Assembly: GCA_945831575.1 (NCBI GenBank)
Contig: CAMACX010000010.1
Location: forward strand, 1 to 64,000
DNA from: an uncultured Mediterranea sp.
Lineage (GTDB): Bacteria > Bacteroidota > Bacteroidia > Bacteroidales > Bacteroidaceae
Length of the DNA stretch: 64,000 bases
Direction of reading: 5' to 3'
Part shown: positions 32,255-64,000 of the stretch, in pieces
Numbering within the stretch: position 1 is the stretch's first letter
How the letters are laid out: each line of letters begins with the position of its first letter
The notes under the pieces: generated by a model
What the model was told of the DNA's origin: nothing
Databases searched by the model: none
What the model saw: the letters and a program-made list of their open reading frames with translations, nothing else
Position numbers and translations under genes: made by a program

Positions 32255-32268
32255 TTAACTGATTAAGG

Positions 32269-32315
32269 TCCTCCCTCCCTCTCCTTCTAACAGCAGGGTG
32301 AGGGAGGATTTTTTT
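32269..32315 (+). terminator. Terminator after the fimbrillin-like gene
   Basis: Arms TCCTCCCTC and GAGGGAGGA pair perfectly and are followed by seven T residues. Typical intrinsic terminator. Confidence 0.88.
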
Positions 32316-32416
32316 GTTCTTTCCGTAGTGGTCTATGTTCTTTCCTTGGGGCACCACCCTGTCTGTAGACCAACGTTCATTATTCTATGGTTTATGCGCA
32401 TGGTTTCCTTCTCAAC

Positions 32417-32586
32417 TCATTTTAGATGTAGCGTTTTCCATCCATCTGCCCATGTTATTGCGAAGAAACCGTCGGTGTCTGGCTCTTTCCGTTGCTCACC
32501 ACGGACTCTTTAGCAACATTATCTATAATATAATTGCCGAGTTCGCCCAATATAGTCGATATACTTGCGATAATGTGAGGCGTAAA
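32417..32586 (-). pseudogene. Decayed C-terminal fragment of a second caspase-family gene
   Basis: Reading the minus strand gives GELGNYIIDNV, then VSNGKSQTPTVSS, and after a one-base frame loss ITWADGWKTLHLK and a stop. These align with the end of the adjacent intact gene (DELSSYVITNV, VVNGKSQTPTLSTS, ISLTDGWKELKLK). At the DNA level GTGTCTGGCTCTTTCCGTTG is shared exactly. The frameshift and an in-frame stop upstream mean that it cannot encode a full protein. It is about 57 codons long, lies on the same strand just downstream of the intact copy, and is probably the remnant of a tandem duplication. The rest of the 425-bp gap holds only the terminator above and a weak hairpin near 32650. Confidence 0.8.
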
Positions 32587-32678
32587 CTACCAAAGTAGGC
32601 ATCCCGATAATACTATTAGCGTAGTTAGCGCCTACACATGGTTTAAAGAAACGTTTGCTCATTATAAAAGCAAGTATG

Positions 32679-35012
32679 CTATTTTAATTTTAATTCTTTC
32701 CAACCATCAGTTAATGAGATAGATGTAGATAGTGTTGGTGTCTGGCTCTTTCCGTTGACTACGATTGATTGTTGTTTTACATTTGTAATTACATAGCTAC
32801 TAAGTTCATCTAGGTTCATATTACCCTTTGACTCTTTCAGCTTCTTCAACATGAAATAGGTGAACATTCCATGGCTTTTTGTTTTATATGGGTAGGCTGT
32901 TTCCTGTCCAGAAGCTGCACAGAAGACTACCATGTTGCCTTGTGGTTCGTCAGCTTTTGATTTGATGGCCACTCCGCGTGCAGATGCCAACATGCCATTT
33001 CCACGCAATGCACCGCTGAAGCAGGCATCAAGGAATACAAATACCTTGTTGGCTGGTGTGTTACCCAAAGACTTGTATAAAGTATTAAGGGATATTCCCG
33101 TTGAAACATCAGAACTTATTGCATCCACGGGGAGCAGATAGGCTTCCTTTGAATACTCGTCAGGTACTCCATGTCCAGCAAAATAGAAGATAACTTTAGC
33201 CTCATTGTTATAAGCTTCAGCCACTTGCTTAATCCAATTCAGTTCGTACTTGATGTTATTATAAGTGGCATCAGCCTTATAATGTATGTTTTTGGCAGGG
33301 ATACCTAAAGTCTTTTGACAATACTCCTTGAATATCCATCCGTCATTGCTGGCGAAATCCACCTTTTTTTCGTTTTGATAGTTCTCATTAGAAATGATGA
33401 TAGCAAAAGTCTTATCGTTAATTTCAGCATTAACAGGAATGTCAACGTCAACATCCGACTTGCCCACATTCAGTGAGATGGTTGAAATTGTCTGTTTGCC
33501 TTGATTGTCATTCGATGCAACAGGATTGATGCTGATAGGATCAAAGTTGTATTCAACCTGCGCAATACTGTAGTTAAGCGAAGCTTGGTTGTTGAATGTA
33601 TATGCTTCATTCTGAGATAACCTAAATTCACATTTAGCCAATCCTATACCGTCATTTTGAATAAAGTAGGATGGTTGCTTGGTACACTCAGCAAATTTGT
33701 TTTTGAAGTTCTCAGCCTTTGCAATGGGTACTGGAACGAGTAATTTACCTCCAATTGTACTTTCGATTAAGAATGTTTCATGGTCTGGGTCATACCTTCC
33801 GATAGTAAAATCATTCTGAATATTATTGGCATATAAACCAAGATAGGCTGTTTGTGCTTTCTTGGTAAGTTCTATGACTTTCTGTTGGCGGGTTTGTTCA
33901 TTCACCCTCGTCTGCCATACGGTAGTCTTCTCAAATTCGCCTTTCTTTTGCCACTCATTTATAAATTGTTCGACATAGCTTTGGGCAAAAGTACTAAAAG
34001 ACTGTTTCTTTTTGATGGCAAAAGACACATCTGCAAACATACAGGGAAGCACTTCATTGCCATCAGTATTATAGATGCCGTATAGTTTTCCGTCCTTTGT
34101 CACCTTGAGAAGACCATTGTCTGTTTCTCTAATCTCTTTATACTCATTTTTTAGAATAACATCTCCTGCTTTATTCACAGCTCCATATTTCCCATTGATA
34201 CAATATGTTTGACATGTTCCATTTAGAAATGTATATGATGTTTCAATTTTCTCCTTATATGTGCATGTAACAATGTTCTTTAAGTTCTTGTTTGCCAAAC
34301 CATATAATCCATTCTTTTTTACGGAGCAGAGTATTAAGTTGTCATTTCTTAGTGCATCGTAATCTATTTCCTGATAAGGTTGTGGTTGTGTGAATGTATA
34401 TTGGACCCATTTATAGCCGTCACTTCTCTGTCTTGGTTCAACGCGAAGAACAGGTTGTTCAATCCCTTGTTTCAACAAGATCGCCTCGGCTTGTGAGTAA
34501 AACTCATCAATAATGTAAACAGAATACCAAGCATAAGGATTATTCTTATTCTTTTGCTTTTGCTTTTCTTCTGCCTCCTCCTTCAAATTTTTAGCAATAA
34601 TGTATCTCTTATTCATATATTCTACAAATAAATTATCATAAACTTCTTTCTCCTTTTCCCATTCGTCGTGTTTTTTCTTCCATTCATTATATTCTTCCTT
34701 TAATGCAGGGTCTGGCATATAGAATTCGATAAAGGCATCGTATGCTTTGTATTTTATACCACCAAAAGCTATTACCTTACCTAACTTATTGCAGAATCCA
34801 TATTGTGTTTCTGTTCCAACTTGTTTTCCGATGAGATACCATCCACCACTGTTTTTATTGTATTCTACAATGACATACTTTGTCTTCAACTGATTGGCAA
34901 CAGCAACATTCTGAGCTTGAATGTTGATAGACATACATACTATGAACAAAATGAATGATTCTCTTATTCTTCCCATACCTTGCTTATTTTGTTTGGTTAC
35001 TATGTTACTCAT
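32679..35012 (-). CDS. Exported caspase-family protein with WG-type repeats
   Basis: A 777-aa ORF; the likely start is Met13 (34976), which begins a hydrophobic leader (ESFILFIVCMSINIQAQ) cut near QAQ, so export is predicted. A helical, lysine-rich segment (about residues 95-165) is followed by WG-like beta repeats with KNGLYGLANKNLKNIV, INGKYGAVNKAGDVIL and DGKLYGIYNTDGNEVL. The last about 220 residues are a peptidase C14 (caspase-like) domain with catalytic His614 in YFAGHGV and Cys664 in FLDACFSG (ORF numbering). Such proteins are common in Bacteroidota; their targets are unknown. A minus-strand -7 element (35086-35094) and an inverted repeat (35020-35039) lie upstream. A decayed second copy of its C-terminus lies downstream. 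Confidence 0.85.
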   Translation of the reverse strand: MSNIVTKQNKQGMGRIRESFILFIVCMSINIQAQNVAVANQLKTKYVIVEYNKNSGGWYLIGKQVGTETQYGFCNKLGKVIAFGGIKYKAYDAFIEFYMPDPALKEEYNEWKKKHDEWEKEKEVYDNLFVEYMNKRYIIAKNLKEEAEEKQKQKNKNNPYAWYSVYIIDEFYSQAEAILLKQGIEQPVLRVEPRQRSDGYKWVQYTFTQPQPYQEIDYDALRNDNLILCSVKKNGLYGLANKNLKNIVTCTYKEKIETSYTFLNGTCQTYCINGKYGAVNKAGDVILKNEYKEIRETDNGLLKVTKDGKLYGIYNTDGNEVLPCMFADVSFAIKKKQSFSTFAQSYVEQFINEWQKKGEFEKTTVWQTRVNEQTRQQKVIELTKKAQTAYLGLYANNIQNDFTIGRYDPDHETFLIESTIGGKLLVPVPIAKAENFKNKFAECTKQPSYFIQNDGIGLAKCEFRLSQNEAYTFNNQASLNYSIAQVEYNFDPISINPVASNDNQGKQTISTISLNVGKSDVDVDIPVNAEINDKTFAIIISNENYQNEKKVDFASNDGWIFKEYCQKTLGIPAKNIHYKADATYNNIKYELNWIKQVAEAYNNEAKVIFYFAGHGVPDEYSKEAYLLPVDAISSDVSTGISLNTLYKSLGNTPANKVFVFLDACFSGALRGNGMLASARGVAIKSKADEPQGNMVVFCAASGQETAYPYKTKSHGMFTYFMLKKLKESKGNMNLDELSSYVITNVKQQSIVVNGKSQTPTLSTSISLTDGWKELKLK

Positions 35013-35019
35013 AAATCGA

Positions 35020-35039
35020 ACAATAATATATTTTATTGT
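35020..35039. promoter_or_regulatory. Inverted repeat upstream of the caspase-family gene
   Basis: ACAATAA and TTATTGT separated by 6 bp, in the leader region between the -7 element and the start. It could be an operator or just A/T-rich symmetry. Confidence 0.3.
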
Positions 35040-35085
35040 AATATTCGGATTGCATTAGTTTTACTTGCAGCTGATTGCTGCGGGT

Positions 35086-35094
35086 GCAAAATTA
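35086..35094 (-). promoter_or_regulatory. -7 element for the caspase-family gene
   Basis: TAATTTTGC on the minus strand matches TAnnTTTG about 110 bp upstream of Met13. No well-spaced -33 element is evident. Confidence 0.45.
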
Positions 35095-35135
35095 CTAAGT
35101 TTTTTCAATAATGTGCTTGTGGTTGGCAATATTTT

Positions 35136-35609
35136 TCATGACCCTTTAAAAGTACTGGATTCAATCTTGGAAATAGCATTTCCTTCATCTACCTCACCAA
35201 ACCATTCTTTCAGTTTGTTCATGGCCTGAGCTTTGATTTCGGGGGTGATGTTGCTCCCTACGGTGTTGAGAACCCAGAGGAGCGCAGTGAGGTCATCGGA
35301 GTAGCCGGCTACCGGGATGAAGTCGGGTATGAGGTCCACGGGAAGGATGAAGTAGCCCAAGACTCCGATTATTTTGGCTTTTTCAGCGGTACTGACTTGT
35401 GGTGACTGCAAGACATAATAGAGTGTCAGGGCGGCGTAGATGACTTTCATGCCGGCCTGCTTGGCTACGCTCTTTATCTTGTTCCATAGCTTGCTCTCGT
35501 CGTAGTGTGAGCTGTAGCTCTCCACGTTGGTGGGGACTTTCGTACTCATATCATTCTTCTTGTTTTCCATTGTCAGGCGCATGTTTTTACTCTCTGATAT
35601 TTGCTGCAA
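35136..35609 (-). CDS. DUF1232 (YkvA-family) membrane protein
   Basis: A 157-aa ORF; Met14 (35570, MENKKND) or Met21 are also plausible starts. The DUF1232 core is clear: KAKIIGVLGYFILPVDLIPDFIPVAGYSDDLTAL, a hydrophobic hairpin with the family signature P-x-D-L-I-P-D. The region before has an amphipathic helix (VIYAALTLYYVLQSP). Members of this family are small membrane proteins of unknown function. The length and charge are normal. It stands alone on the minus strand, with a repeat-rich gene-free stretch upstream. Confidence 0.85.
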   Translation of the reverse strand: MQQISESKNMRLTMENKKNDMSTKVPTNVESYSSHYDESKLWNKIKSVAKQAGMKVIYAALTLYYVLQSPQVSTAEKAKIIGVLGYFILPVDLIPDFIPVAGYSDDLTALLWVLNTVGSNITPEIKAQAMNKLKEWFGEVDEGNAISKIESSTFKGS

Positions 35610-35704
35610 AAATCGGAAGAAGTGTTGAAAAGACCAAGTGATTTCCTCTGTTTTATAGCATATAGCGGCTATTTCCTTGTCTTTTGATGCCTGCTTCTGG
35701 GCAG

Positions 35705-35760
35705 TTAACTGTTCGCGGCTGGATATTTAACTGTTCGCTGCTAAGGAGTTAAACATCCAG
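35705..35760. repeat. Direct and inverted repeats upstream of DUF1232
   Basis: TTAACTGTTCGCGGCT (35705-35720) is repeated as TTAACTGTTCGCTGCT (35727-35742), 22 bp apart. Overlapping it, CTGGATATTTAACT (35719-35732) and AGTTAAACATCCAG (35747-35760) form a 14-bp inverted repeat with one mismatch. Confidence 0.75.
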
Positions 35761-35799
35761 TTCTGACAGCTTAACTCTTCAGATGCAGGGCTGCTGTTA

Positions 35800-35872
35800 G
35801 TGCGCAACATCGTTTCACATCCTACACTTTTGTCGATTTTTTTTTCTTAATTCACAAAATGTATCATTGTGT
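35800..35872 (+). repeat. 73-bp direct repeat, copy A
   Basis: Starts GTGCGCAACATCG and ends ATTGTGTT. It is about 80 percent identical to copy B at 36640-36712, in the same orientation. Confidence 0.8.
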
Positions 35873-35909
35873 TTTGGTGTGAGGTGAGTCAGCCGTAGGA
35901 CTGCCGTTC

Positions 35910-35964
35910 CTCTAATCGGACTCTAATCGGACTCTAATCTTTCTCTAATCAATCTCTAATCCGG
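35910..35964 (+). repeat. Five tandem 11-bp units (CTCTAATCnnn)
   Basis: Units begin at 35910, 35921, 35932, 35943 and 35954 and share CTCTAATC with three variable bases (GGA, GGA, TTT, AAT, CGG). An inverted half-site AATTAGAG follows at 35965-35972. Confidence 0.9.
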
Positions 35965-35983
35965 AATTAGAGTTGGATTAGTG

Positions 35984-36016
35984 TTACTACGGAGTAACTA
36001 CGGAGTAGCTTCGGAG
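35984..36016 (+). repeat. Three tandem 11-bp units (TWRCTnCGGAG)
   Basis: TTACTACGGAG, TAACTACGGAG and TAGCTTCGGAG follow each other exactly, and TTACCTTAGAC continues the period in decayed form. It has the same 11-bp period as the preceding array but an unrelated sequence. Confidence 0.85.
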
Positions 36017-51884: not shown

Positions 51885-54800
51885 TTACTTCTTGTGTGCT
51901 TCAACCCACTTGCGGGCGTTGACAAAGGCCTCAATCCAGGGAGTCACCTCATCGGCCTTGCGTTCGTCGGGGTAGTACCCGCATTGCCAGGGGAAGATGG
52001 TGCGCTCGGGGTGAGGCATGATGGCCAGGTGGCGTCCGTCCTTGCTGGCGATGGCGGCTACGCTGTAGCTTGAGCCGTTGGGATTGGCGGGGTATTCATC
52101 GTACGAGAATTTGGCTACGACGTTGTACTCCTCCTCAGGCAGGGGCAGGTTAAACTTGCCTTCGCCGTGGGCTACCCAGGTGCCGATCTTGAAGCCGCTC
52201 AGCGAACCGAACATCACACTGCGGTTGGTCGTTACGGTCAGTGAGACGAAGTTGCACTCAAACTTGTGGCTGTCGTTGTGCTCCATGCGGGCACGCTTGT
52301 CGGCGGGATGCTCGGGGTTGATGAGTCCCAGCTCTACCATCAGCTGGCAGCCGTTGCAGACACCGAGCGAGAGGGTATCTTCACGGGCATAGAACTTGTC
52401 GAGGGCCTCCTTGGCCTTGGGGTTATAAAGGAAGGCACCTGCCCATCCCTTGGCCGAACCGAGTACGTCGCTGTTGGAGAATCCGCCGCAGAAGGCGATG
52501 ACGTTGACATCCTCCAACGTCTCGCGGCCACTGATCAGGTCGGTCATGGTGACATCCTTCACGTCAAATCCAGCCAGCCAGAAGGCATAGGCCATCTCGC
52601 GCTCGGAGTTGGTACCCTTCTCGCGGATGACGGCAGCCTGCAGTCCGCTCGCTGTGCGGCGGTCGGGGTCGAGTCCCCACTGCTTCAGCCGGCCCGTGAA
52701 CGAAGGACCGAAGGCCAGCTCCAGCGGCTGCTGCTTGTAGTTCTCAAAGCGCTCCTTGGCCTTGCCGTGGAAGCTCTGCTTGCGGTCGAGCAGGTAGGAG
52801 CTCGAGTACCATACGTCGCGCAGGTAGTCGATACCAAACTGGTAGTCGGAGCCCTCCATGCTCACCATGATGTGACGCTCGTCGGTCGGTACACCCAGCT
52901 TGATGTAACCCACGCCGGCATCGTCGAGAATCTTCTTCACGCGCGGTGCATCGTGGTCGCTCACCTGGATGACTACACCGGGATTCTCGGAGAAGAGTGC
53001 CTTCACGATGTCGGTGCCCACCAGCTTGTTCAGGCAGATCTCCATACCGCCCTCTACATTGGCGAAGCACATCTCCAGCAGGGTGGTGATCAGACCGCCG
53101 GCAGAGATGTCGTGACCGGCCATCACCAGCCCCTCGTTGATGAGCTGCTGCACGGCCAGGAAGGCATCGCGGAAGTATTCAGGATTCTTCACGGTAGGCA
53201 CGTCGCTGCCCACCTTACCCTGCGACTGGGCGAAGGCAGAGCCGCCCAGCTGCAGCGTGTCGAAGGAGAAGTCGATGTGGTAGAAGCGGCTCTTCTTGAC
53301 GTTCTTCATCACGGGAGAGACGATCTTGCGGATGTCGCTCACCTCGCCGCCGGCCGATACGATGACCGTACCCGGGGCAATCACCTTGCTGCCGTCGGGG
53401 TACTTCTGCGTCATCGAGAGGCTGTCCTTACCTGTCGGTACGTTGATCTGCAGGGCGCAGCAGAAGTCGCTCAGCGCCTTGACTGCGGTGTAGAGGCGGG
53501 CATCCTCACCCTCCTGCGAGCGGCAGGGCCACATCCAGTTGGCTGAGAGCGATACGCTGTCCAGCCCGTCGGCCAGCGGAGCCCATACCAGGTTGGTCAG
53601 TGCTTCGCTCACGCTGAGCACGGATCCTGCGGCGGGGTTGGCCAGGGCCGCCTGCGGGGCGTGACCCAGCGAGGTGGCGATACCCTTGCGGCCACGGTAG
53701 TCGAGGGCCACGGCACCGCAGTCGCTCAGCGGCAACTGCAGTTCGCCCTGACATTGCTGCCGGGCCACACGGCCCGTCACGCAGCGATCCACCTTGTTGG
53801 TCAGCCAGTCCTTGCAGGCCACGGCTTCGAGCTGCAGCACGTTGGCCACATATTCATCGAGACGGGTCACGTCATAGGTCACCACGTCGTATTTGCGTTC
53901 CACGGTCTTATCCACCATGTAGGTCTTGGGTGAAGAGCCAAACATCTGCTCCACGGCCAGGTCGAAGGGACGCACGCCGTCGGCCTGCTGGAAGGCGAAG
54001 CGGTGGTCGCCGGTGGTCTCACCCACCACGTACATCGGGGCGCGTTCGCGCTCAGCAATCTTCTGCACATGCTCGATGGCCTGCTCCTCGATGAGCAGGC
54101 CCATGCGCTCCTGGCTCTCATTGGCAATAATCTCCTTGGCTGAGAGGGTCTTGTCGCCGATGGGCAGCTTGCTCATGTCAATCAGTCCGCCACACTCCTC
54201 CACCAGTTCGCTCAGGCAGTTGACGTGGCCGGCCGAGCCGTGGTCGTGGATGGAGACTACGGGGTTGCTCTCCTCCTCGCAGAGGGCACGTACCACGTTG
54301 TAGGCACGCTTCTGCATCTCGGCGTTGGCGCGTTGCACCGCGTTCAGCTCGATGCCGCTGCTGTAGCGGCCCGTGTCAACCGATGATACCGAGCCACCGC
54401 CCAGGCCGATGCGGTAGTTGTCACCGCCGATGACCACCACCTTCTCGCCGGCTTCAGGCTTGCCCTTCAGGCAGTCGCGGCGTGTGCCGTAGCCTACGCC
54501 ACCGGCCAGCATGATGACCTTGTCGTAGCCATAGAGCGTATCTTCAGCGTTCTCCTTGTGCTCGAAGGTGAGCACTGAGCCGCAGATCAGCGGTTGGCCA
54601 AACTTGTTGCCGAAGTCGCTGGCACCGTTGGAGGCCTTAATAAGGATCTGCTCCGGTGTCTGGTAGAGCCACTTGCGCACGGGCAGCAGCTCCTCCCATT
54701 CGCGTCCTTCGTCGGTGCGGGGGTAGGAGGTCATATAGACGGCCGTTCCGGCGATGGGCCAGGAACCCTTACCGCCACCCATACGGTCGCGGATCTCACC

Positions 54801-55598
54801 ACCCGTACCGGTTGAGGCGCCGTTGAAGGGCTCCACCGTGGTGGGGAAGTTATGCGTTTCAGCCTTGAGCGAGATGACGCTCTCGATCTCCTTTACCTGG
54901 AAGTAGTCGGGCTTGGAGTGGTCGGCGGGGGCAAACTGCTCCACTACCGGGCCTGCGGCAAAGGCCACGTTGTCCTTGTAGGCCGAGATAATCTTGTTGG
55001 GGTTCTCCTGGGTGGTCTTCTTGATCATCTGGAAGAGGGATGACTCCTTCTCCTCGCCGTCGATGATGAAGGTGCCGCCGAATATCTTGTGGCGGCAGTG
55101 CTCGGAGTTGATCTGGGCAAAGCCGAACACTTCGCTGTCGGTCAGCGGGCGGCCGAGGTCCTGCTCCACCTTCTTCAGGTAGTCCATCTCCTCGCGTGAG
55201 AGGGCCAGGCCCTCCTGCTCGTTGTAGGCCTCCAGATCGTCGATGTGGACGATGGGCTCAGGTTGACGGTGGGTCGTGAAGAGCTCCTGGTTGAGTCCCT
55301 TGTACATGCGTTGCAGCATGGGGTCGTGGTCGGCGTTCTCATCGGCTACGGGGAAGTACTCCTCGATGCGGCTGATGCCGCCGAGGCCCATGTTCTGGGT
55401 GATTTCCACGGCGTTGGTGCTCCACGGCGTAATCATCTCGCGGCGTGGGCCAACGAAGTGGCCGCTTAGATGTTCTTCACTTTCGGGGGTAGCGTTGCCG
55501 AAGAGCCAGCAGAGCTTCTCGCAGTCGGCTTGCAGAAGGGCGTGATCGCTCTCTACGGCGATGACGCTCTGTTGTGGGGTTCTGAAAAATAGAATCAT
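51885..55598 (-). CDS. purL: Phosphoribosylformylglycinamidine synthase (FGAM synthase)
   Basis: About 1,237 aa, the large single-chain form, from Met at 55598 (MILFFRTPQQSVIAVE); the ORF extends 13 codons further, but the promoter lies there. It converts FGAR to FGAM with ATP and glutamine in purine synthesis. Visible parts: the PurS-like N-terminal domain, the central ATP-grasp-like PurM halves (EVFGFAQINSEHCRHKIF, ETHNFPT..., HDISAGGLITTLLEM) and the C-terminal glutaminase with catalytic Cys in LGVCNGCQLM and HPERTIFP. Many antisense ORFs here are shadows. The -7 element at 55634-55642 sets transcription start about 30 nt before this ATG. Confidence 0.97.
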   Translation of the reverse strand: MILFFRTPQQSVIAVESDHALLQADCEKLCWLFGNATPESEEHLSGHFVGPRREMITPWSTNAVEITQNMGLGGISRIEEYFPVADENADHDPMLQRMYKGLNQELFTTHRQPEPIVHIDDLEAYNEQEGLALSREEMDYLKKVEQDLGRPLTDSEVFGFAQINSEHCRHKIFGGTFIIDGEEKESSLFQMIKKTTQENPNKIISAYKDNVAFAAGPVVEQFAPADHSKPDYFQVKEIESVISLKAETHNFPTTVEPFNGASTGTGGEIRDRMGGGKGSWPIAGTAVYMTSYPRTDEGREWEELLPVRKWLYQTPEQILIKASNGASDFGNKFGQPLICGSVLTFEHKENAEDTLYGYDKVIMLAGGVGYGTRRDCLKGKPEAGEKVVVIGGDNYRIGLGGGSVSSVDTGRYSSGIELNAVQRANAEMQKRAYNVVRALCEEESNPVVSIHDHGSAGHVNCLSELVEECGGLIDMSKLPIGDKTLSAKEIIANESQERMGLLIEEQAIEHVQKIAERERAPMYVVGETTGDHRFAFQQADGVRPFDLAVEQMFGSSPKTYMVDKTVERKYDVVTYDVTRLDEYVANVLQLEAVACKDWLTNKVDRCVTGRVARQQCQGELQLPLSDCGAVALDYRGRKGIATSLGHAPQAALANPAAGSVLSVSEALTNLVWAPLADGLDSVSLSANWMWPCRSQEGEDARLYTAVKALSDFCCALQINVPTGKDSLSMTQKYPDGSKVIAPGTVIVSAGGEVSDIRKIVSPVMKNVKKSRFYHIDFSFDTLQLGGSAFAQSQGKVGSDVPTVKNPEYFRDAFLAVQQLINEGLVMAGHDISAGGLITTLLEMCFANVEGGMEICLNKLVGTDIVKALFSENPGVVIQVSDHDAPRVKKILDDAGVGYIKLGVPTDERHIMVSMEGSDYQFGIDYLRDVWYSSSYLLDRKQSFHGKAKERFENYKQQPLELAFGPSFTGRLKQWGLDPDRRTASGLQAAVIREKGTNSEREMAYAFWLAGFDVKDVTMTDLISGRETLEDVNVIAFCGGFSNSDVLGSAKGWAGAFLYNPKAKEALDKFYAREDTLSLGVCNGCQLMVELGLINPEHPADKRARMEHNDSHKFECNFVSLTVTTNRSVMFGSLSGFKIGTWVAHGEGKFNLPLPEEEYNVVAKFSYDEYPANPNGSSYSVAAIASKDGRHLAIMPHPERTIFPWQCGYYPDERKADEVTPWIEAFVNARKWVEAHKK

Positions 55599-55633
55599 AT
55601 CTTGTCTTTTTCGCACATGTTTCTTTTCGTGCT

Positions 55634-55642
55634 GCAAAGATA
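55634..55642 (-). promoter_or_regulatory. -7 element for purL
   Basis: TATCTTTGC on the minus strand, a perfect match, placing transcription start near 55627 and supporting the internal ATG at 55598 as the true start. A PUR-box or riboswitch is not evident. Confidence 0.7.
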
Positions 55643-56085: not shown

Positions 56086-57663
56086 ATGAAAACACGATTA
56101 GTCTTGTCAACCTGTCTTTTGGTCCTTGCTGTAAACTGCTTTTCGCAGCAGCGGGTTACCCGGGAAAGCTTGGATTCCCTGCGCGCCAGTTTCTTTGTCG
56201 ATGCCGACGAGATGGTGAGTGGGTTTGAGGCGTATGCCCAGGAGGCGGAGCAGGCGTATCGGCGTGATGCGGCTCGGCTGGAGGAGGAGTACCGGCGCTT
56301 TGTGCGCCAGGTCGGCCGTGTCTGGGGTACCGATTCTCTGGGACAGGTGATGAGCGATACGAAGCATGAATGGGTGGAGTATGGCAAGCATTACAAGTCG
56401 CGCTCACGGGTCAACTTCGAGACCGGCCGTGTGGTGGTGGAGGTGGCGCTCGACCCGAAGGAGGCAAAGGATTCGCTCAAGCAGACGCAGCGCTTGGCTG
56501 AGGCCGTGCAGCAGCTCCTGGAGAGCCGCGGTTCTCTGACGCCCTACGATGCGTCCGGGGAGCGTGGCGAGGCACTCGCCACCCAGCCCATCCTGCAAGG
56601 TCTGCTGGACCTCTCTCCCTATCAGGGTCTCGATGAATCCCTTATCAACGGATCAGACAGCACGGAGCCGACTCTGGCCAACAGCCGGCCGGCACCTCCT
56701 CAGCCTACGGTGCGTGGCGGGGAGCTGGCCCTTCAGCCCCGTGATGATGCCTCCCGGACAGCGGAGGACACTGCGCTCACTTCCGGTGATGGACAGCCGG
56801 TTGACAGCACATCCCGTGACAACGCTGGCTCCCGAGGCAGCATGGCCTCCCGCCGCAGCCAGCAATTGCGCTCTCGCGAGGCAGCACGCGAAGAGGCCGC
56901 CCGTCGCGCCTCCGAAAGGGCGGCGGCACGTCATCATGCGGCAAAGGCCACACCCCAGGTGGCTACCTCTCCCTCATCGGCTGCCGGCTCCAAGAAGGGG
57001 AGTGGCAAGACGCTGGCTTCGCGTATCATTGCCGAGCAGAGCGTCAAGCAGCTGAGCCGTGTGGAGGGGAGTGGCGGCGAGGTGCGTCAGGTGGTGGCCA
57101 TCGAGATGAAGCTCGTCGCCGACAACCTCTCCAAGAATGCCGCCCTCTACAAAGACCTGGTGGCTGAATTTTCCAATCGCTATCAGGTGGAGCAACCGCT
57201 CATCTTTGCGGTCATCGAGCAGGAGTCCGCCTTCAATCCCCAAGCTACCAGCTGGGTGCCGGCCTACGGACTGATGCAGCTCGTACCCACCTCGGGTGGT
57301 CGCCACGCCTACCGCTACGTCTATGGCAAGGAGTGGTGCCCCACGCAAGCCTACCTCTACAATCCACGCAACAACATCGAGCTGGGCACGGCCTACCTGC
57401 GCGTGCTGCTCAACCAGTTTGCCGCCGTGGGCAATCCCGACTGCCGCCGTCTCTGTGCCATAGCCAGCTACAACACCGGAGCCGGCAACGTGAGCCGCTC
57501 TTTCACGGGAGGTACCAGCGTGGTACAGGCCACGCCGCTCATCAACCAGATGGATTATGCTACCCTCTATAATCACCTCACGACCAGACTGTCGCACAGC
57601 GAAGCCCGGGGCTACGTGGCAGGCGTGACCCGCCGCATGACCAAGTACGTGAAGCAGGAGTAG
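56086..57663 (+). CDS. MltC-like membrane-bound lytic murein transglycosylase
   Basis: About 525 aa from Met at 56086 (MKTRLVLSTCLLVLAVNCFSQ, signal peptide); the ORF opens at 56050. The N-terminal part (RRDAARLEEEYRRFVRQVGRVWG, RVNFETGRVVVEVAL) resembles the MltC N-terminal domain, and the C-terminal SLT domain has the catalytic Glu in FAVIEQESAFNP, then GLMQLVP and CAIASYNTGAGN. Between them is a long Ala/Ser/Arg-rich spacer (about residues 210-330). It cleaves glycan strands of peptidoglycan to 1,6-anhydro products. No lipobox is obvious. The gene precedes the zinc-ribbon run by 46 bp on the same strand. Confidence 0.85.
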   Translation: MKTRLVLSTCLLVLAVNCFSQQRVTRESLDSLRASFFVDADEMVSGFEAYAQEAEQAYRRDAARLEEEYRRFVRQVGRVWGTDSLGQVMSDTKHEWVEYGKHYKSRSRVNFETGRVVVEVALDPKEAKDSLKQTQRLAEAVQQLLESRGSLTPYDASGERGEALATQPILQGLLDLSPYQGLDESLINGSDSTEPTLANSRPAPPQPTVRGGELALQPRDDASRTAEDTALTSGDGQPVDSTSRDNAGSRGSMASRRSQQLRSREAAREEAARRASERAAARHHAAKATPQVATSPSSAAGSKKGSGKTLASRIIAEQSVKQLSRVEGSGGEVRQVVAIEMKLVADNLSKNAALYKDLVAEFSNRYQVEQPLIFAVIEQESAFNPQATSWVPAYGLMQLVPTSGGRHAYRYVYGKEWCPTQAYLYNPRNNIELGTAYLRVLLNQFAAVGNPDCRRLCAIASYNTGAGNVSRSFTGGTSVVQATPLINQMDYATLYNHLTTRLSHSEARGYVAGVTRRMTKYVKQE

Positions 57664-57709: not shown

Positions 57710-59563
57710 GTGACTATGTATTGTCCTGAATGTGGAACGAAAATCGAGGAAACAGGGGCGCGCTTCTGCCCTGAATGCGGCACGCGGCTCGACGAGCCTG
57801 AGGAGTCACAGCAACCTGCTGCGGCATCTGCTGCGCCGTCTGCCGCGCAACTTGCTGCAGGGGAAGCGGCCTGTGGTAAGGAGAACCCGATGGAGTGGGG
57901 ACTTATCCTCACCAACTGTCGCCTGCTCTCTGCCAAGCTGGGAGGCAGCGTGGAGGAGGCCAACCAACTGATGGCCAGCTACATCGAAGCACGTCGTGCC
58001 TCGGGAGTAGATTATGAACTGATTGACGTGGATGACTACACCTACCGCAAGCGCAGTTTCCTGAGCCGTACACGCCATGTGAGCCTACAGCCCGACTCCC
58101 CTTGGGGTGACTACCTTGACCTGCTGGCCGATGCTGTCGAGGCACGCACCGGCAAGCGCGCCAAGGGGCAGCCCCTCTATCTCTTCATCCTGGGTAGCAA
58201 CGACATCATCCCCATGCCTTGCGTGCCCCATCCCGTGAAGGAGGTGAGCGACAACGACATCGACACCGACCTGCTCTGGGCCTATCCCTACGGTCATCGT
58301 ATGGTGGATGAACTGCAGAGCCTGAACATCTTCCACTACGACCAGCAGCTCATGGTGGGTCGCCTTCCCGTGGGCGAGGACACGACGTGGAGCCAGTTTG
58401 CGGATTACCTGCAGCGGAGCGTCAACAGCAGTCTGGGCATACCCGGGGGCGTGGTCTATGGCCAGTGCGATCCCCATTGGAAGCGCGTCTCCTCCACGGT
58501 GGCCGGCGGTCTGACCCCCAACTTGCGCAACCTGGCTGCTCAGCCCTCCAGCGGCTACTACCGGGGATTGATTCTCTCGCCCTCCTATACCGCTGACAAT
58601 CTCAGTCAGGTCTTCACCCCTGAGGCTTATCTTTACTACTTCAACCTGCACGGCAGCAACGCCCCTGAGGCCTCCGGCTACTACGGCACCACCCTGGAGG
58701 AGCGCCCCAAATGCTATACGGTGATGCATCCCGTCTTCATGCAGGCCTGCCGGCAGCCCAATGTGGTGACCTGCGAAGCCTGCTACGGTGCCCGTCACCG
58801 GGGTATGGACAGCGCACACAGCACCCTGCTTGCCGCTCTCTATGCACAGACCCTGCTCTTTGTAGGCTCCTCGCGGATAGCGTGGGGCGATGTAGATGCC
58901 ATCGATGGTTCTGCTCCCACCCCCATGCTGGCCGACACCCTGGCCGCTACCTTCATGAACGCCCTCCAGGCTGGCTATCCCGCCGGACTGGCCCTCTTCC
59001 TGGCCAAGTCGGCTGTGATGCAGCAGGACAAGCAGGGCCGTCCGCACACCGCAGCCACGCTGCTGGAGTTTAACCTCTTCGGCGACCCCTCGCTCTACCT
59101 CGCTTTGTGGGATGAGGAGGCGACCGATGACAAGCGTGAGTCCCATAAGGAGCCTCGCCCCAACACGGCCCTTCCCCAGTCGGCTACCCAGCCCACCGCA
59201 CAGAGCTACGTCTGCCAGACGGAGCTGCTAGGAGGCGAGGCCGGAGCCGCATCCGCCACATCATCCGGAGCCGCATCTAGAGCTCCCTCTGCCGCATCGC
59301 CCACCGCCTCCCTGCTGCAGCAGGTCAGGTCGCAGGTCAACGCTAACGTCCTCCATATCCATGACCAGATGGCCCGTCACCTCTACAGCCGTTATGGCAT
59401 CCCGCCGAGGCCGGCCGCTGCCATCTTCCGCTTGCGTTATGCCGATGGCAGCGAAGAGCTCCGGTTCGACTACACCGTAGCGAGCGAAGGCGAGGTGAAG
59501 CAGACCCTGACCGTCACCTCGGATGCCCAAGGTAACATCAGACAGGTAATTGGAACTAAATAA
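57710..59563 (+). CDS. Double-zinc-ribbon protein with C25-like (gingipain-type) peptidase domain
   Basis: A 617-aa protein with no signal peptide. Residues 4-24 are a double zinc ribbon (YCPECG, then FCPECG). A C25-like domain follows: LFILGSNDIIPMP, DTDLLWAYPYG, MVGRLPVGED, catalytic-type His314 in YYFNLHGSN, and Cys358 in TCEACYGARHRG, then FVGSSRIAWG and FNLFGDPSLYL. These parallel the ordered motifs of clan-CD C25 peptidases such as gingipains, which have His and Cys in H-G-x-x and x-x-x-C-x-x-G. A charged Ala/Ser/Pro-rich spacer (about residues 485-560) leads to a small C-terminal domain. Cytoplasmic location is inferred from the lack of a leader. It starts the zinc-ribbon gene run. Confidence 0.7.
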   Translation: MTMYCPECGTKIEETGARFCPECGTRLDEPEESQQPAAASAAPSAAQLAAGEAACGKENPMEWGLILTNCRLLSAKLGGSVEEANQLMASYIEARRASGVDYELIDVDDYTYRKRSFLSRTRHVSLQPDSPWGDYLDLLADAVEARTGKRAKGQPLYLFILGSNDIIPMPCVPHPVKEVSDNDIDTDLLWAYPYGHRMVDELQSLNIFHYDQQLMVGRLPVGEDTTWSQFADYLQRSVNSSLGIPGGVVYGQCDPHWKRVSSTVAGGLTPNLRNLAAQPSSGYYRGLILSPSYTADNLSQVFTPEAYLYYFNLHGSNAPEASGYYGTTLEERPKCYTVMHPVFMQACRQPNVVTCEACYGARHRGMDSAHSTLLAALYAQTLLFVGSSRIAWGDVDAIDGSAPTPMLADTLAATFMNALQAGYPAGLALFLAKSAVMQQDKQGRPHTAATLLEFNLFGDPSLYLALWDEEATDDKRESHKEPRPNTALPQSATQPTAQSYVCQTELLGGEAGAASATSSGAASRAPSAASPTASLLQQVRSQVNANVLHIHDQMARHLYSRYGIPPRPAAAIFRLRYADGSEELRFDYTVASEGEVKQTLTVTSDAQGNIRQVIGTK

Positions 59564-59576
59564 AATACAAAAGAAT

Positions 59577-61976
59577 ATGAAATGTCCTAAGTGTAACGCA
59601 GAGCTCCGCGAAGGTGCCAAGTTTTGTACCAAGTGTGGAGAGAAGATTGTTCAGCAGGCTGGACAGCAGGCTGAGCAGCAACCTGTATGTGCTCAGTGTG
59701 GGGCACCGCTGAAGCCGGGTGCCAAGTTCTGTACGAAGTGTGGTACCAAGGTGCAGGCCATTGCGCCTGTGCAGGAGGAGCCGAAAGTCCCGCAGCCACA
59801 GTCAGCAGACGATATGCAGGCCGCTGCCGGACGCATCATCTGGAATATACAGCCCGGACTGGTGGCCCGTGTCATTAGTGAGGCGGAGTTTGAGACCTAC
59901 CGCAAGGTGCAGGGAGTCATCATTCCCGAAGGGACTACCGCCTACATCCGCTGCAACGGACGCACCATCGCCTCCATCAGCGGAGGCACCTACGACTTCC
60001 GTGAGGAGCAGGAAGGCAACATCCTGACCCGTGCCGGTGAGTCGTTGGGGCAGTCACTCAAGCGTGGATGGCAGCTCATTGCCTCCCTCTTCAGCCGCAA
60101 GAAGCCCGAGCCCAAGGCCGAGCCTACGGCACAGGAGCTCTACGAACAGCAGCAGCGGCTCATCCTGGAGAATGCCCGCCGTGGAGCCGCTTTCTCCGTC
60201 ATCATCCTGCTAGATAAGGCGTTCCCCCTGTTGATTGGGGCCAAGCAGCCCAATCTGGACGACTACGCCCGCTTCAAGCCCATGAAGATTCAGACGGCGC
60301 ACCTCGAACTGGAGATGGGGGTCAACGCCTACTTCCGCATCGTCAACTACGAGCAGTTTATCCTCCACTACCTTACCGACAAGACATTGCTCAACACGGC
60401 GGCCATCGTCGATGAGATTGCCGACTCCGTGCGCGTGGTGCTGCAGGAAGCCCTCTATGATACCGACCTGCCCGACGGAAGGGTCAGCCCCGCCATGCAC
60501 GCCCTGCTCAAGGAGCGCGTCAATAGTATCGCCGACCAGGCCTTCTTTGGTCTCTCCGTGGTGCGTATTGTCGAGATCTCGGCAACCAACGATGACCTCA
60601 GCCGCTTTGCTACCCTGAGCCGTGAACTTTACCTCTCTGAGCAGGAGCTTGACTACCTGCGCCGCACCAACGACTTCAAGAACCGCCTGGCCGATGTCAA
60701 CAACGCCCAGCAGCTGCACGAGGCCACTACCGACCTCGAACTGAGGCGGCAGCTCCATGCCATCAACCGCAACAGCCGCCAGGAGGAGCTGCTCAACGAA
60801 GACGAACTGGCTAAGTTTGAACTGCTGCTGCGCAACGAGCGCATCCTGCGTGAGGCACGCTCGGACGAGGAGCGCGAAGCGGCCCTCCATGAGATCCGCA
60901 AGAGCGGACTGATCCGGGAGGAGGAGTTGCAGGTGATGAAGGACAATATCCAGGTCAATGCCTACAAGCGCGGCACCGCCCTGGCCATGATGCAGCTCAA
61001 GGATAGCATCGACTTCGAACGCGCCCGCCTGGAAGGCGAGGGTGAACGGGCTGAGCTCATCGTCCGCAAGGAGCTGGAGCTGATGGGGCTGAAGGATGCC
61101 TACGCCGACAGCCGCTTCGACAAGCAGCTCGATCAGCAACGCCGTCTGGCCGACTCGCAGCTCGATGTGGAGCAGCGCCGCCGCGACATGGACTATAACG
61201 ACACCAAGCGCCTGCACGACATGCAGCGTGAGGATGATGAGGCGCAGTTCCAGCAGTTTCTGGCCATGCAGCAGGCCGAGGAGCAGCAGCGCGAGAACCA
61301 GCGTCGCCACGAGGCCGAGATGCAGCAACAGCAGTTGCGCAACGCCCAGGAGATGGAGCGCCTGAAGTGGGAGGGCGCACGCGACCTCTCCGACGAGAAG
61401 GTGTGGGCCATGCAGGGTGGCGAAGCTGCCGTGGCCTACGCGCAAAGCAAATACAGTGCCGACAACGAACGACGCACGCGCGAACTGCTCGATGCCCAGC
61501 GCCGAGAGCAGGAGGCCCGTCTGGACCAGGAGCGTCAGCGCCGTGAAGAGGCCGATCGAGCCAACCAGGAGCGGATGTACGAGATGATGAACAACATGAT
61601 GCAGATGACGGGAGCTATCGCCGGTGTGCGCAGCGAGGAGCGCGAACAGCGTAACCAGGAGCGGCTGGCCGACCGCGACCGCGAATTGCGCGAACGCGAA
61701 GCACGCCTGCAGCGTCAGGAGGGCCGCATGGACACCGCCTACGACCGTGCCCTGGACTACACCACCCGCAATAACGTGCAGCCCCCCATGCCGCAAGGTT
61801 ACCAGCAACCCACACCGTCCCAGAGCTACCAGCAACCCACGCCGTCGCCAGCAGCGCCTCTTCAGCAGCCCGCTGCTCCTGCCGCAAAGGATATCCCTGC
61901 GGTATGTCCCGATTGTGGTGCTCCGGTAGAACCCGGTGCCTTGTTCTGCGAAGACTGTGGAGCCAAACTGGGATAA
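59577..61976 (+). CDS. SPFH/coiled-coil protein with zinc ribbons at both ends
   Basis: About 799 aa from Met at 59577 (MKCPKCNAELREGAKFCTKCG); the ORF opens 9 codons earlier. Order: two zinc ribbons (CPKCN/CTKCG and CAQCG/CTKCG, about residues 1-55), an SPFH/band-7-like domain (about 85-390; VQGVIIPEGTTAYIRCNGRTIASISGGTYDF, with MGVNAYFRIVN), a very long charged coiled coil (about 410-730; many QRREQEARLDQE segments), a Pro/Gln linker, and a last zinc ribbon (CPDCG...CEDCG). No transmembrane segment is seen. It resembles the Bacillus YdjI-type SPFH proteins, which have a C-terminal zinc ribbon and act in membrane stress. The length is much greater here. It lies 13 bp after the peptidase gene, so the two are very likely co-expressed. 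Confidence 0.7.
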   Translation: MKCPKCNAELREGAKFCTKCGEKIVQQAGQQAEQQPVCAQCGAPLKPGAKFCTKCGTKVQAIAPVQEEPKVPQPQSADDMQAAAGRIIWNIQPGLVARVISEAEFETYRKVQGVIIPEGTTAYIRCNGRTIASISGGTYDFREEQEGNILTRAGESLGQSLKRGWQLIASLFSRKKPEPKAEPTAQELYEQQQRLILENARRGAAFSVIILLDKAFPLLIGAKQPNLDDYARFKPMKIQTAHLELEMGVNAYFRIVNYEQFILHYLTDKTLLNTAAIVDEIADSVRVVLQEALYDTDLPDGRVSPAMHALLKERVNSIADQAFFGLSVVRIVEISATNDDLSRFATLSRELYLSEQELDYLRRTNDFKNRLADVNNAQQLHEATTDLELRRQLHAINRNSRQEELLNEDELAKFELLLRNERILREARSDEEREAALHEIRKSGLIREEELQVMKDNIQVNAYKRGTALAMMQLKDSIDFERARLEGEGERAELIVRKELELMGLKDAYADSRFDKQLDQQRRLADSQLDVEQRRRDMDYNDTKRLHDMQREDDEAQFQQFLAMQQAEEQQRENQRRHEAEMQQQQLRNAQEMERLKWEGARDLSDEKVWAMQGGEAAVAYAQSKYSADNERRTRELLDAQRREQEARLDQERQRREEADRANQERMYEMMNNMMQMTGAIAGVRSEEREQRNQERLADRDRELREREARLQRQEGRMDTAYDRALDYTTRNNVQPPMPQGYQQPTPSQSYQQPTPSPAAPLQQPAAPAAKDIPAVCPDCGAPVEPGALFCEDCGAKLG

Positions 61977-62014
61977 ACGGCATACGGTGAACCCAGAAAC
62001 AGAGGAACTTGAAA

Positions 62015-62073
62015 TAGAATGAGATAACCCTCAAGACAGTATCAGATAACCTCAGAAACAGTATCAGATAACC
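62015..62073 (+). repeat. 22-bp-period repeats upstream of the small gene
   Basis: The core (CAGTATCAGATAACC) occurs at 62037-62051 and 62059-62073, with an imperfect third copy at 62015-62029. Steps are exactly 22 bp. The set lies between the coiled-coil gene and the small ORF, where no promoter is recognised. Confidence 0.85.
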
Positions 62074-62090
62074 CTTAAAGAAGACAGTGT

Positions 62091-62336
62091 ATGGCAACCA
62101 TAGAATGTACAGGCACCCTGCAGATCAGGACGAGCAATGAAGGCTCGAAGTCGGAAGGTCGTTATGCCATCCTCCTTACGGACGAGGGTAGCGAATACAC
62201 CCTCTACCGGGCTGGCTCCATGCCGATGGACGATCCTTACTTCGATCCCTACGACGGTGCCAAGGTCACCCTCACCGGTGAGGAGGAGGCGAACAGCTAC
62301 CTTAGGGTAACGAGTGAGCCAATTATAAATAGGTAA
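62091..62336 (+). CDS. Small beta-rich protein
   Basis: An 81-aa protein with short alternating polar/hydrophobic segments (ECTGTLQIRTSNEG, GRYAILLTDEGSEYTLYRAG, GAKVTLTGEEEANSYLRVTSEPI), suggesting a compact beta-barrel of OB-like size. No family is recognised and it lacks a leader, zinc ligands or helices. It is 21 bp upstream of the next zinc-ribbon gene and 114 bp after the coiled-coil gene, with a 22-bp repeat array in that gap. Coding status is supported by codon pattern, ATG choice and operon position. Confidence 0.65.
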   Translation: MATIECTGTLQIRTSNEGSKSEGRYAILLTDEGSEYTLYRAGSMPMDDPYFDPYDGAKVTLTGEEEANSYLRVTSEPIINR

Positions 62337-62357
62337 AATTAAAACGATAGATAGATT

Positions 62358-63659
62358 ATGGGAGAACCAAGATTCTGTCCCGATTGTGGGACCAAGGTGG
62401 CAGACGACGAACGCTTCTGCCCCAATTGTGGAGTGGAGGTCCCTGCGCAGGCCGTTGCGCCTGCTGCCTCCGTACCTACTGCCCAAGCGGCGGCTGATGC
62501 ACCAGCGCTGTCGCAGGAGGAACCGATGATAGGTGCCGGTGCACGGGTCAACGCCACGGGTGGCATTCACCGCACCTCACACCAGCATGTGAATGTCAGC
62601 AACCAACAGGTGGATAACTCAAGCAACATCAGCAATACCACCAACAACACCACCATCGTGATGAACGGTACGGGGGAAGCCAAGTATTGTGAAGTGTGCG
62701 GCAATCCCCTGGAGGAGAAGCATCCACGTTGCCCCAAGTGCGGCAAGCAGATCTGCTTCGACTGTAAGGTGAAGGGGAAAAATCGCTGTGTGGAGTGTGA
62801 GAAGAAGGCGCGTGAGGAGTATCGCATCGCCTTCCAGCAACTGCTGCTCACGACCAACGGCAACCTCGGGGCCGCCGGTCGTCAGATGATGAACAACAAG
62901 GCACGCGAACTCGATGTGGAGGATGTCAAGGCTGACCTGGAGAAGGAGCTACTGGCCCTTTTCCGTCCCGCCAAGCCGGAACAACCTGCTGTCGCTGCGG
63001 CTGCCACTGCTGCTACAACAGCAGCTGCCGCTGCTGCCGTGGCTCAAAGAGCGGGCTCCCAGGCCCCCGCAGCAGGTACCAAGGGAACACCCAAGGGACT
63101 CGGCGCATTGAGTGGCGGCGAAGGCATCCGTCCACAACCCAAGGGCAATGAGGGAGGCGGCAACCGTACACTCTGGTTTCTCCTGGGTGGTGTAGCGGCT
63201 GTGGCCGTCATAGCCTTCCTGGCCTTTGGCGGCAAGGGAGAGAAGACGGAGTCAGCACCGGCTGAGCCACAGGCTGTGGAGCAAACCGCAGAACCGTCCG
63301 CAGCGGCACCCAAGTCGGGGACTCCCACCACACAGCCGGCCACTCCGCAGCAATCTGCTGTCGCCACACAGCCTACGCAGTCTGCACAACCTGCTCAGCA
63401 GACGCAAGCTGCGCCCGCGAAGTCAGCCACGCCTGCTACGGATGCCAGTTATGAGGCCGGCATGAAGGCTTACAAGGCTGGCGAGGGACTGGAGGCCATC
63501 GAGTGCTTCAAGAAGTCGGGCAGTGCCCAGGCCAACTACATGCTCGGCATCATCTACGAGAGCGGTTGCGGCAACGTAGGTTCCAATGCCATGATGGCCC
63601 GCAAGTACTTCAAGAAGGCTGCCCAACAAGGCTCAGCTGAAGCCAAGGCCAAGCTGTAG
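62358..63659 (+). CDS. Zinc-ribbon membrane protein with Sel1-like tail
   Basis: A 433-aa protein. Residues 7-25 form a zinc ribbon (FCPDCG...FCPNCG). A Asn/Thr-rich strand region (HQHVNVSNQQVDNSSNIS) precedes a second Cys-rich module (CEVC, CPKC, CFDC, CVEC; about residues 110-150). Ala/Pro/Gln-rich linkers flank one hydrophobic helix at about 272-290 (LWFLLGGVAAVAVIAFLAFGG). The C-terminal about 70 residues are Sel1-type TPR-like helices (EAIECFKKSGSAQANYMLGIIYESG, ARKYFKKAAQQGSAEAKAKL). The topology with N-terminal zinc modules in the cytoplasm and the tail outside is inferred. It likely belongs with the peptidase and SPFH genes. Confidence 0.7.
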   Translation: MGEPRFCPDCGTKVADDERFCPNCGVEVPAQAVAPAASVPTAQAAADAPALSQEEPMIGAGARVNATGGIHRTSHQHVNVSNQQVDNSSNISNTTNNTTIVMNGTGEAKYCEVCGNPLEEKHPRCPKCGKQICFDCKVKGKNRCVECEKKAREEYRIAFQQLLLTTNGNLGAAGRQMMNNKARELDVEDVKADLEKELLALFRPAKPEQPAVAAAATAATTAAAAAAVAQRAGSQAPAAGTKGTPKGLGALSGGEGIRPQPKGNEGGGNRTLWFLLGGVAAVAVIAFLAFGGKGEKTESAPAEPQAVEQTAEPSAAAPKSGTPTTQPATPQQSAVATQPTQSAQPAQQTQAAPAKSATPATDASYEAGMKAYKAGEGLEAIECFKKSGSAQANYMLGIIYESGCGNVGSNAMMARKYFKKAAQQGSAEAKAKL

Positions 63660-63730
63660 GATGTAATTTATCACAGTATGTCATATTGTATTTAATCACA
63701 TAATTTGTAAACCCTAATATAAGAAATAGC

Positions 63731-64000
63731 ATGAAAAGAATCATTATGTTTTCAGTCTGCTGCCTTCTGATGGCAGCTACCCTTTTTGCACAGGAAGAGT
63801 ATCGTAAACCTACCGTCCTCGTAGCAGGATTCAAGCATGCAGGCAATATCTCATCCAGTGAGGCAGAGACGTTGCGCAACTCCATCATCTCTTCCCTGTC
63901 GCATCAACACCGCATTCGCTTGATTGACCTCAATACCGAAACCACCCTCTCTGAGGAGCAGAAACGCCGTCTCAACGAGGCCACCATGGATGATCTCATG
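63731..64000 (+). CDS. Exported protein, 5' part (runs off the window)
   Basis: The first 90 codons, too close to the window edge to appear in the ORF track. A signal peptide (MKRIIMFSVCCLLMAATLFAQ) is followed by RKPTVLVAGFKHAGNIS and a helical segment (SEAETLRNSIISSLSHQ). The pattern of an edge strand with a small Gly-containing turn, then an amphipathic helix and HRIRLIDL, recalls the alpha/beta domain of curli-CsgG/TolB-amino-terminal-like proteins, but the visible part is too short to decide. It is 71 bp after the Sel1-like gene on the same strand and may belong to the same unit. Confidence 0.6.
   Translation, partial: MKRIIMFSVCCLLMAATLFAQEEYRKPTVLVAGFKHAGNISSSEAETLRNSIISSLSHQHRIRLIDLNTETTLSEEQKRRLNEATMDDLM

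Follow-up and report, generated by a model that had tools for sequence, protein, structure and literature searches.

A conserved operon pairing a predicted caspase-fold peptidase with an SPFH protein, zinc ribbons and envelope genes in gut Bacteroidales

Gene content of the operon

The window (the whole stretch of DNA that was analysed, 64,000 nucleotides) closes within a nine-gene plus-strand operon that holds the four genes of an original prediction and extends past the window end. The operon's first gene encodes an MltC-type lytic transglycosylase with a signal peptide (56086..57663, ORF open from 56050; Pfam SLT 1e-25, Mltc_N 1.3e-8) and had been overlooked, as had three genes past the fifth. 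It is followed, in the order and on the strand originally described, by the genes for a C25-like (clan CD) peptidase of 617 aa with an N-terminal zinc ribbon (57710..59563; recognised by Pfam, alignment and model), an SPFH protein of 799 aa from its ATG (59577..61976, ORF open from 59550; Pfam ribbons and AlphaFold2/Foldseek), a small beta protein of 81 aa (62091..62336) and a 433-aa zinc-ribbon (ZnR) protein with a transmembrane (TM) segment and a Sel1 repeat (62358..63659; Pfam and hydropathy scan), henceforth the ZnR-TM protein. The gene that had been noticed starting at the window edge (63731..64000, running to contig position 64648) encodes an exported LpoB/TolB-like protein, and beyond the window the same strand carries genes for a DUF6175 protein (contig 64667-65962), an LPP20 protein (contig 65959-67305) and, last in the operon, an LPP20-type lipoprotein with a lipobox (contig 67388-67936).

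The gaps within the operon measure 46 bp between the MltC-type and peptidase genes, 13 bp between the peptidase and SPFH genes, 114 bp between the SPFH and 81-aa genes, 21 bp between the 81-aa and ZnR-TM genes (the values of 13 and 21 bp having been given correctly before) and 71 bp between the ZnR-TM and LpoB-like genes; an 18-bp gap then separates the LpoB-like and DUF6175 genes, followed by a 4-bp overlap and by about 80 bp between the LPP20-type genes. No tRNA gene lies in the operon stretch, and terminator-like sites in it are not above chance level. Elsewhere in the window, the GC content falls to 0.40 at positions 32001-36000 from about 0.52 around, and this segment was perhaps acquired.

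The peptidase gene begins with GTG (an alternative ATG lies at 57716), and residues 5-24 of its product form a CPECG-n-CPECG zinc ribbon (57722..57781; Zn_Ribbon_1 E 1.6e-7). The catalytic His314 in an LHG motif (58649..58651) and Cys358 in an ACYG motif (58781..58783) make up the His-Cys pair expected of the peptidase homologues, and H314-G315 and C358 are indeed invariant in 26/26 sequences from several phyla as well as in SPFH-less alphaproteobacterial relatives. Pfam Peptidase_C25 (PF01364) scores the window protein at 21.5 bits, against a curated cut-off of 23, and a relative (L081) at 43.1 bits; the Pfam C25 search of the source genome returned no match, which is a matter of threshold, and alignments were used instead. 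A 26-sequence peptidase profile matches gingipain R, in an alignment too weak to place the S1-pocket residue. The AlphaFold2 model (pLDDT 83.6) has the caspase-haemoglobinase fold of clan CD, with gingipain K as best PDB match (E 1.1e-9) and further matches to SAVED-CHAT, separase, Csx29/TPR-CHAT (Craspase) and caspases. We detected no signal peptide or hydrophobic segment in the peptidase, whose N-terminus is the ribbon itself. On the strength of the invariant dyad, the fold model and the missing signal peptide, the peptidase is predicted to be an intracellular clan-CD enzyme of the C25 type, a family whose known members cleave after Arg or Lys (PMC4357240, PMC12445089).

The SPFH protein carries two N-terminal zinc ribbons and one C-terminal one (Pfam Zn_Ribbon_1 E 3.5e-22), the latter common among SPFH members, and a long coiled coil. 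Pfam makes no SPFH call in the window protein; it finds Band_7 in a relative from Treponema (L079) and Band_7_1 in another (L072). The window protein's AlphaFold2 model (pLDDT 74.6, with the low pTM expected for a long coiled coil) shows an SPFH fold followed by a coiled coil, as in the SPFH superfamily, and matches HflK/C, prohibitin, flotillin and stomatin in Foldseek. By hydropathy scan most SPFH members have no clear TM segment, and a weak hydrophobic stretch at residue 212 of the window protein is absent from most relatives.

The ZnR-TM protein joins a ribbon (Zn_Ribbon_1 E 1.2e-9) to a TM segment at residues ~272-290 (about 63171-63227), called like all TM segments here by a simple hydropathy scan, and to a Sel1 repeat at residues 390-426 (63525-63635; E 2.8e-5, under the curated cut-off). 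Zinc ribbons had been assigned to three of the four original genes, and Pfam Zn_Ribbon_1 hits exactly those three, which are also the only ORFs of at least 100 aa in the 64-kb window with a C..CG-n-C..CG pattern. The small protein is marked by a SKSEG motif (residues 19-23; 62145..62159) that is kept across its family.

Conservation of the peptidase-SPFH pair and its partners

A four-sequence alignment of peptidases served to scan GTDB species genomes and yielded 69 loci, or 70 with that of the window; the seeds of the scan were Bacteroidales peptidases, and distant forms will escape it. Most of the 69 loci belong to gut Bacteroidales, with single loci in Flavobacterium, Neomarinimicrobiota, Verrucomicrobia, Treponema and another spirochaete (Spirochaetales). 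In 68 of the 70 loci (kinship among loci ignored) one and the same strand carries both the peptidase and the SPFH gene, mostly within 135 bp of each other, and 63 loci have them in the window's order; the two exceptions to strand sharing are a contig that ends early and a locus (L029) that has lost the SPFH gene and kept the remaining genes. A phylum-wide search with a full-length profile drew mostly bare zinc ribbons, and we therefore built ribbon-free core profiles (A5 and A6), with A5 covering the SPFH core (59832..60866). The separate peptidase and SPFH profiles match the identical 3 of 247 Bacteroidales genomes and no others, so the module is tightly linked but rare, with a patchy spread over about 1% of Bacteroidales genomes. 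Both surveys bear out the original view of the four genes as a module. The genomes G007, G170 and G137 share the gene set at about 25-59% identity and with one reordering; no copy of the 81-aa gene was detected in G170. Where the order of all nine genes is retained, identities are 29-59%.

Divergent versions occur in L078, L080 and L082, where ribbon-less peptidases of 825-1091 aa lie ~3 kb behind the SPFH gene, with small secreted proteins encoded in between in L082. In the Treponema locus (L079 210-15219), several proteins with ribbons, Sel1 repeats or BspA-type leucine-rich repeats are encoded around the SPFH-C25 pair, which gives the impression of a multiplied third component.

The ribbon on the peptidase goes with the presence of the SPFH gene: it is present on 61 of 65 complete SPFH-linked copies versus 0 of 6 SPFH-less copies (Fisher p about 1e-6, kinship ignored), the four SPFH-linked peptidases without it being distant ones. 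This distribution fits the earlier idea that ribbons serve as assembly parts. In the ZnR protein the C-terminal part varies (Sel1, TPR, LRR_5, WG, beta-helix, Fib_succ), and its TM segment goes with the envelope genes. It is found in 52 loci that have these genes, three exceptions being cut or split genes; both the envelope genes and a TM segment in the ZnR protein are missing from the five non-Bacteroidales loci. The charges flanking the TM segment are of the positive-inside type and predict an N-in/C-out topology, nearly always with the ribbons on the inner side, in keeping with the location at the inner face of the membrane that had been proposed. As judged from these gene sequences, the tracking of envelope genes by the TM segment is the main support for a putative bridge between cytosol and periplasm.

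The LpoB-like (a weak resemblance, E 0.1), DUF6175 and LPP20 genes lie beside the core in most Bacteroidales loci and accompany it, despite reordering, in 57 of the 70 loci. The gene order past the ZnR-TM gene is also conserved in L012, L013 and L014, and in G007, G170 and a large number of other Bacteroidales loci a lytic transglycosylase gene lies directly upstream of the peptidase gene. The presence of transglycosylase and lipoprotein genes in the operon strengthens the envelope coupling of the original prediction. DUF6175 is found in 58 of the 247 Bacteroidales genomes, and all five neighbourhoods inspected (L131-L135) have an LpoB-like/DUF6175 operon with neither peptidase nor SPFH gene. 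Because the envelope operon occurs so widely without the core, its tie to the core is, on gene content, best described as an apparent recruitment and is no proof of joint function; the link of the envelope sub-operon may be one of co-transcription only. The free-standing operons of L131-L135 are themselves from Bacteroidales, and some include LPP20-type genes.

The small-protein family was found in 51 of the 70 loci. Its members have [ST][KR]S[EQD] without exception (51/51), with G next in 50, and a PDB search with the family profile gave no useful match. It is absent from 19 loci, some of them on cut contigs, and we found no fused or hidden version in these loci. Small-protein genes also stand behind C25 genes that have no SPFH neighbour. 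In six such loci, from Rhizobium, Bradyrhizobium and Novosphingobium plasmids and from the genome G701, the small-protein gene directly follows the peptidase gene in 6/6 cases (within 58 bp or overlapping), and the motif reads GSKSE or GTKSE in every pair. Since the pair also occurs without SPFH, the peptidase and the small protein seem to be the more fundamental unit, of which the ribbon/SPFH platform would be an elaboration. The conserved Lys/Arg-Ser, beside a peptidase from a family of basic-P1 proteases, suggests that the basic loop may be substrate-like, making the small protein a candidate inhibitor or first substrate of the peptidase; the 19 loci without it make an obligatory-inhibitor role hard to uphold. 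The order of a ribbon-less cytosolic C25-type peptidase followed by an SKSE small protein is seen in the Rhizobium, Bradyrhizobium and Novosphingobium plasmid loci L137, L141 and L138-L140; in L137 and L141, genes for a chitosanase, an L,D-transpeptidase and caspase-family proteins lie near the pair.

Relation to known SPFH-protease systems

SPFH proteins that work with proteases are an established theme, as in FtsH-HflK/C and NfeD-stomatin (PMC2636767, PMC12048511). The operon resembles HflK/C-FtsH and prohibitin/m-AAA in combining a protease with a probable SPFH ring or cage, the window SPFH model matching both HflK/C and prohibitin, but it differs in that the partner is a clan-CD cysteine peptidase with no AAA ATPase and in that the SPFH protein has zinc ribbons and lacks a clear TM anchor. 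With stomatin-NfeD it has in common that SPFH and protease genes are co-transcribed (PMC2636767); NfeD1b, however, has a ClpP-type serine protease domain, unlike the peptidase here. Pfam finds no FtsH, NfeD or ClpP homologue in the nine-gene operon.

The likeness to Bacillus YdjI put forward in the original prediction stands in part. YdjI is a soluble SPFH protein recruited by TM proteins of its own operon (PMC8581546), and ydjGHI also encodes a membrane protein of the ZnR type (PMC9239133); the window SPFH protein likewise lacks a clear TM segment and bears a zinc ribbon at its C-terminus. The parallel to PspA-YdjGH does not extend to pspA, as PspA models find no match among the nine encoded proteins, and the operon differs further in having a peptidase and a repeat-bearing ZnR-TM protein. 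From the gingipains (C25), with which it shares the fold, the HG...C dyad and a GDP motif, the peptidase is set apart by its N-terminal zinc ribbon, its helix-plus-beta tail and the lack of a signal peptide, whereas gingipains are secreted virulence proteases. SAVED-CHAT and Craspase (TPR-CHAT) are regulated intracellular clan-CD proteases of similar structure, but the operon has no CRISPR or CBASS parts and its regulator appears to be of the SPFH/ZnR kind. Our literature search, with most subscription journals outside its coverage, found SPFH paired with FtsH-type or ClpP/NfeD-type proteases and no published C25-SPFH coupling.

A proposed envelope-linked peptidase and its alternatives

We propose, with an even chance of being right, that the operon encodes a caspase-like peptidase that is assembled through ribbons and caged by the SPFH protein on the inner membrane, and that in Bacteroidales is connected to a periplasmic module of envelope proteins. 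The SPFH protein would form an oligomeric ring or cage abutting the membrane, and the common CPxCG ribbons would join the peptidase, the SPFH cage and the ZnR-TM protein. The Sel1 or other repeat domain of the latter would face the periplasm, where it may meet the LpoB-like, DUF6175 and LPP20 proteins and the lytic transglycosylase, such that an envelope disturbance could be relayed to the caged peptidase and lead to cleavage of cytosolic or membrane proteins. The small protein would be the peptidase's direct partner, its basic loop most probably docking in the active site as inhibitor or as first substrate, which is the least certain step of the scheme. The full chain, a trans-envelope proteolytic switch in which lipoproteins and the lytic transglycosylase act through the ZnR-TM-repeat protein on an SPFH cage with its caspase-like peptidase, held in check by the widespread small partner with its basic SKSE loop in the active site, is a tentative reading that we consider doubtful.

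Alternatively, the operon could serve general membrane proteolysis in the manner of HflK/C-FtsH or stomatin-NfeD, with an SPFH-scaffolded cysteine peptidase for quality control or processing and no dedicated envelope signal. SPFH-protease pairing is classical, and the Flavobacterium, Neomarinimicrobiota, Verrucomicrobia, Treponema and Spirochaetales loci have the core without an envelope module or TM protein. Against this, Pfam finds no ATPase or unfoldase in the operon, known C25 and other clan-CD peptidases are P1-selective, site-specific endopeptidases (PMC4357240, PMC12445089), and the spread over about 1% of Bacteroidales genomes is patchy, so that we rate this explanation as rather unlikely. 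Still less probable, and in our judgement distinctly unlikely, is that two independent modules, a peptidase-SPFH one in the cytosol and one of outer-membrane lipoproteins, have been joined by chance or for expression only. That each half also stands alone (the envelope genes in L131-L135, the core outside Bacteroidales) and that the order of the halves varies (L050, L052, L054, L061) would fit such a joining; what speaks against it is that the halves stay together in 57 of 70 loci even where genes are reordered, and that the ZnR-protein TM segment tracks the envelope genes.

An anti-phage or self-killing device, with the peptidase as abortive-infection effector and the SPFH and ZnR proteins as sensor, appears very unlikely. 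The fold relatives of the peptidase do include the defence proteases SAVED-CHAT and Craspase/TPR-CHAT, the distribution is patchy, and the repeats of the third component vary (Sel1, TPR, LRR, WG, beta-helix); one locus has a TPR-S domain (L077) and another BrxL beside it (L083). PADLOC, however, matches neither the peptidase, the SPFH protein nor the small protein and gives only a weak match in the linker of the ZnR-TM protein; in the sampled flanks housekeeping genes predominate and PADLOC matches are single and scattered, and we found no relatives in the viral contigs or phage genomes searched. The role in phage attack that had been suggested is thus not borne out, and we rejected both a defence island, on the flank scans, and phage or plasmid carriage, the plasmid matches being distant SPFH-less alphaproteobacterial relatives. 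The BrxL locus is the single exception to the absent defence setting. This Paludibacteraceae MAG (L083 2602-11602) has genes for a protein kinase and a BrxL-like Lon protease directly upstream of the SPFH-C25 pair, whose peptidase has no ribbon. In the window as in G170, a genome from a different family of the same order, purL and cstA enclose the operon (window 51885-55637; L001 17452-18903; L013), and these common surroundings speak for inheritance rather than mobility.

A conserved link between SPFH proteins and a caspase-fold enzyme would add a new type to the SPFH-protease partnerships and would give gingipain-like enzymes an intracellular role, with gut commensals as tractable hosts in which to study it. 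The peptidase and small-protein pair spans Bacteroidales to Rhizobium, and two purified proteins suffice for a direct test; should the switch reading hold, the two would constitute a new protease-inhibitor or protease-first substrate family across phyla.
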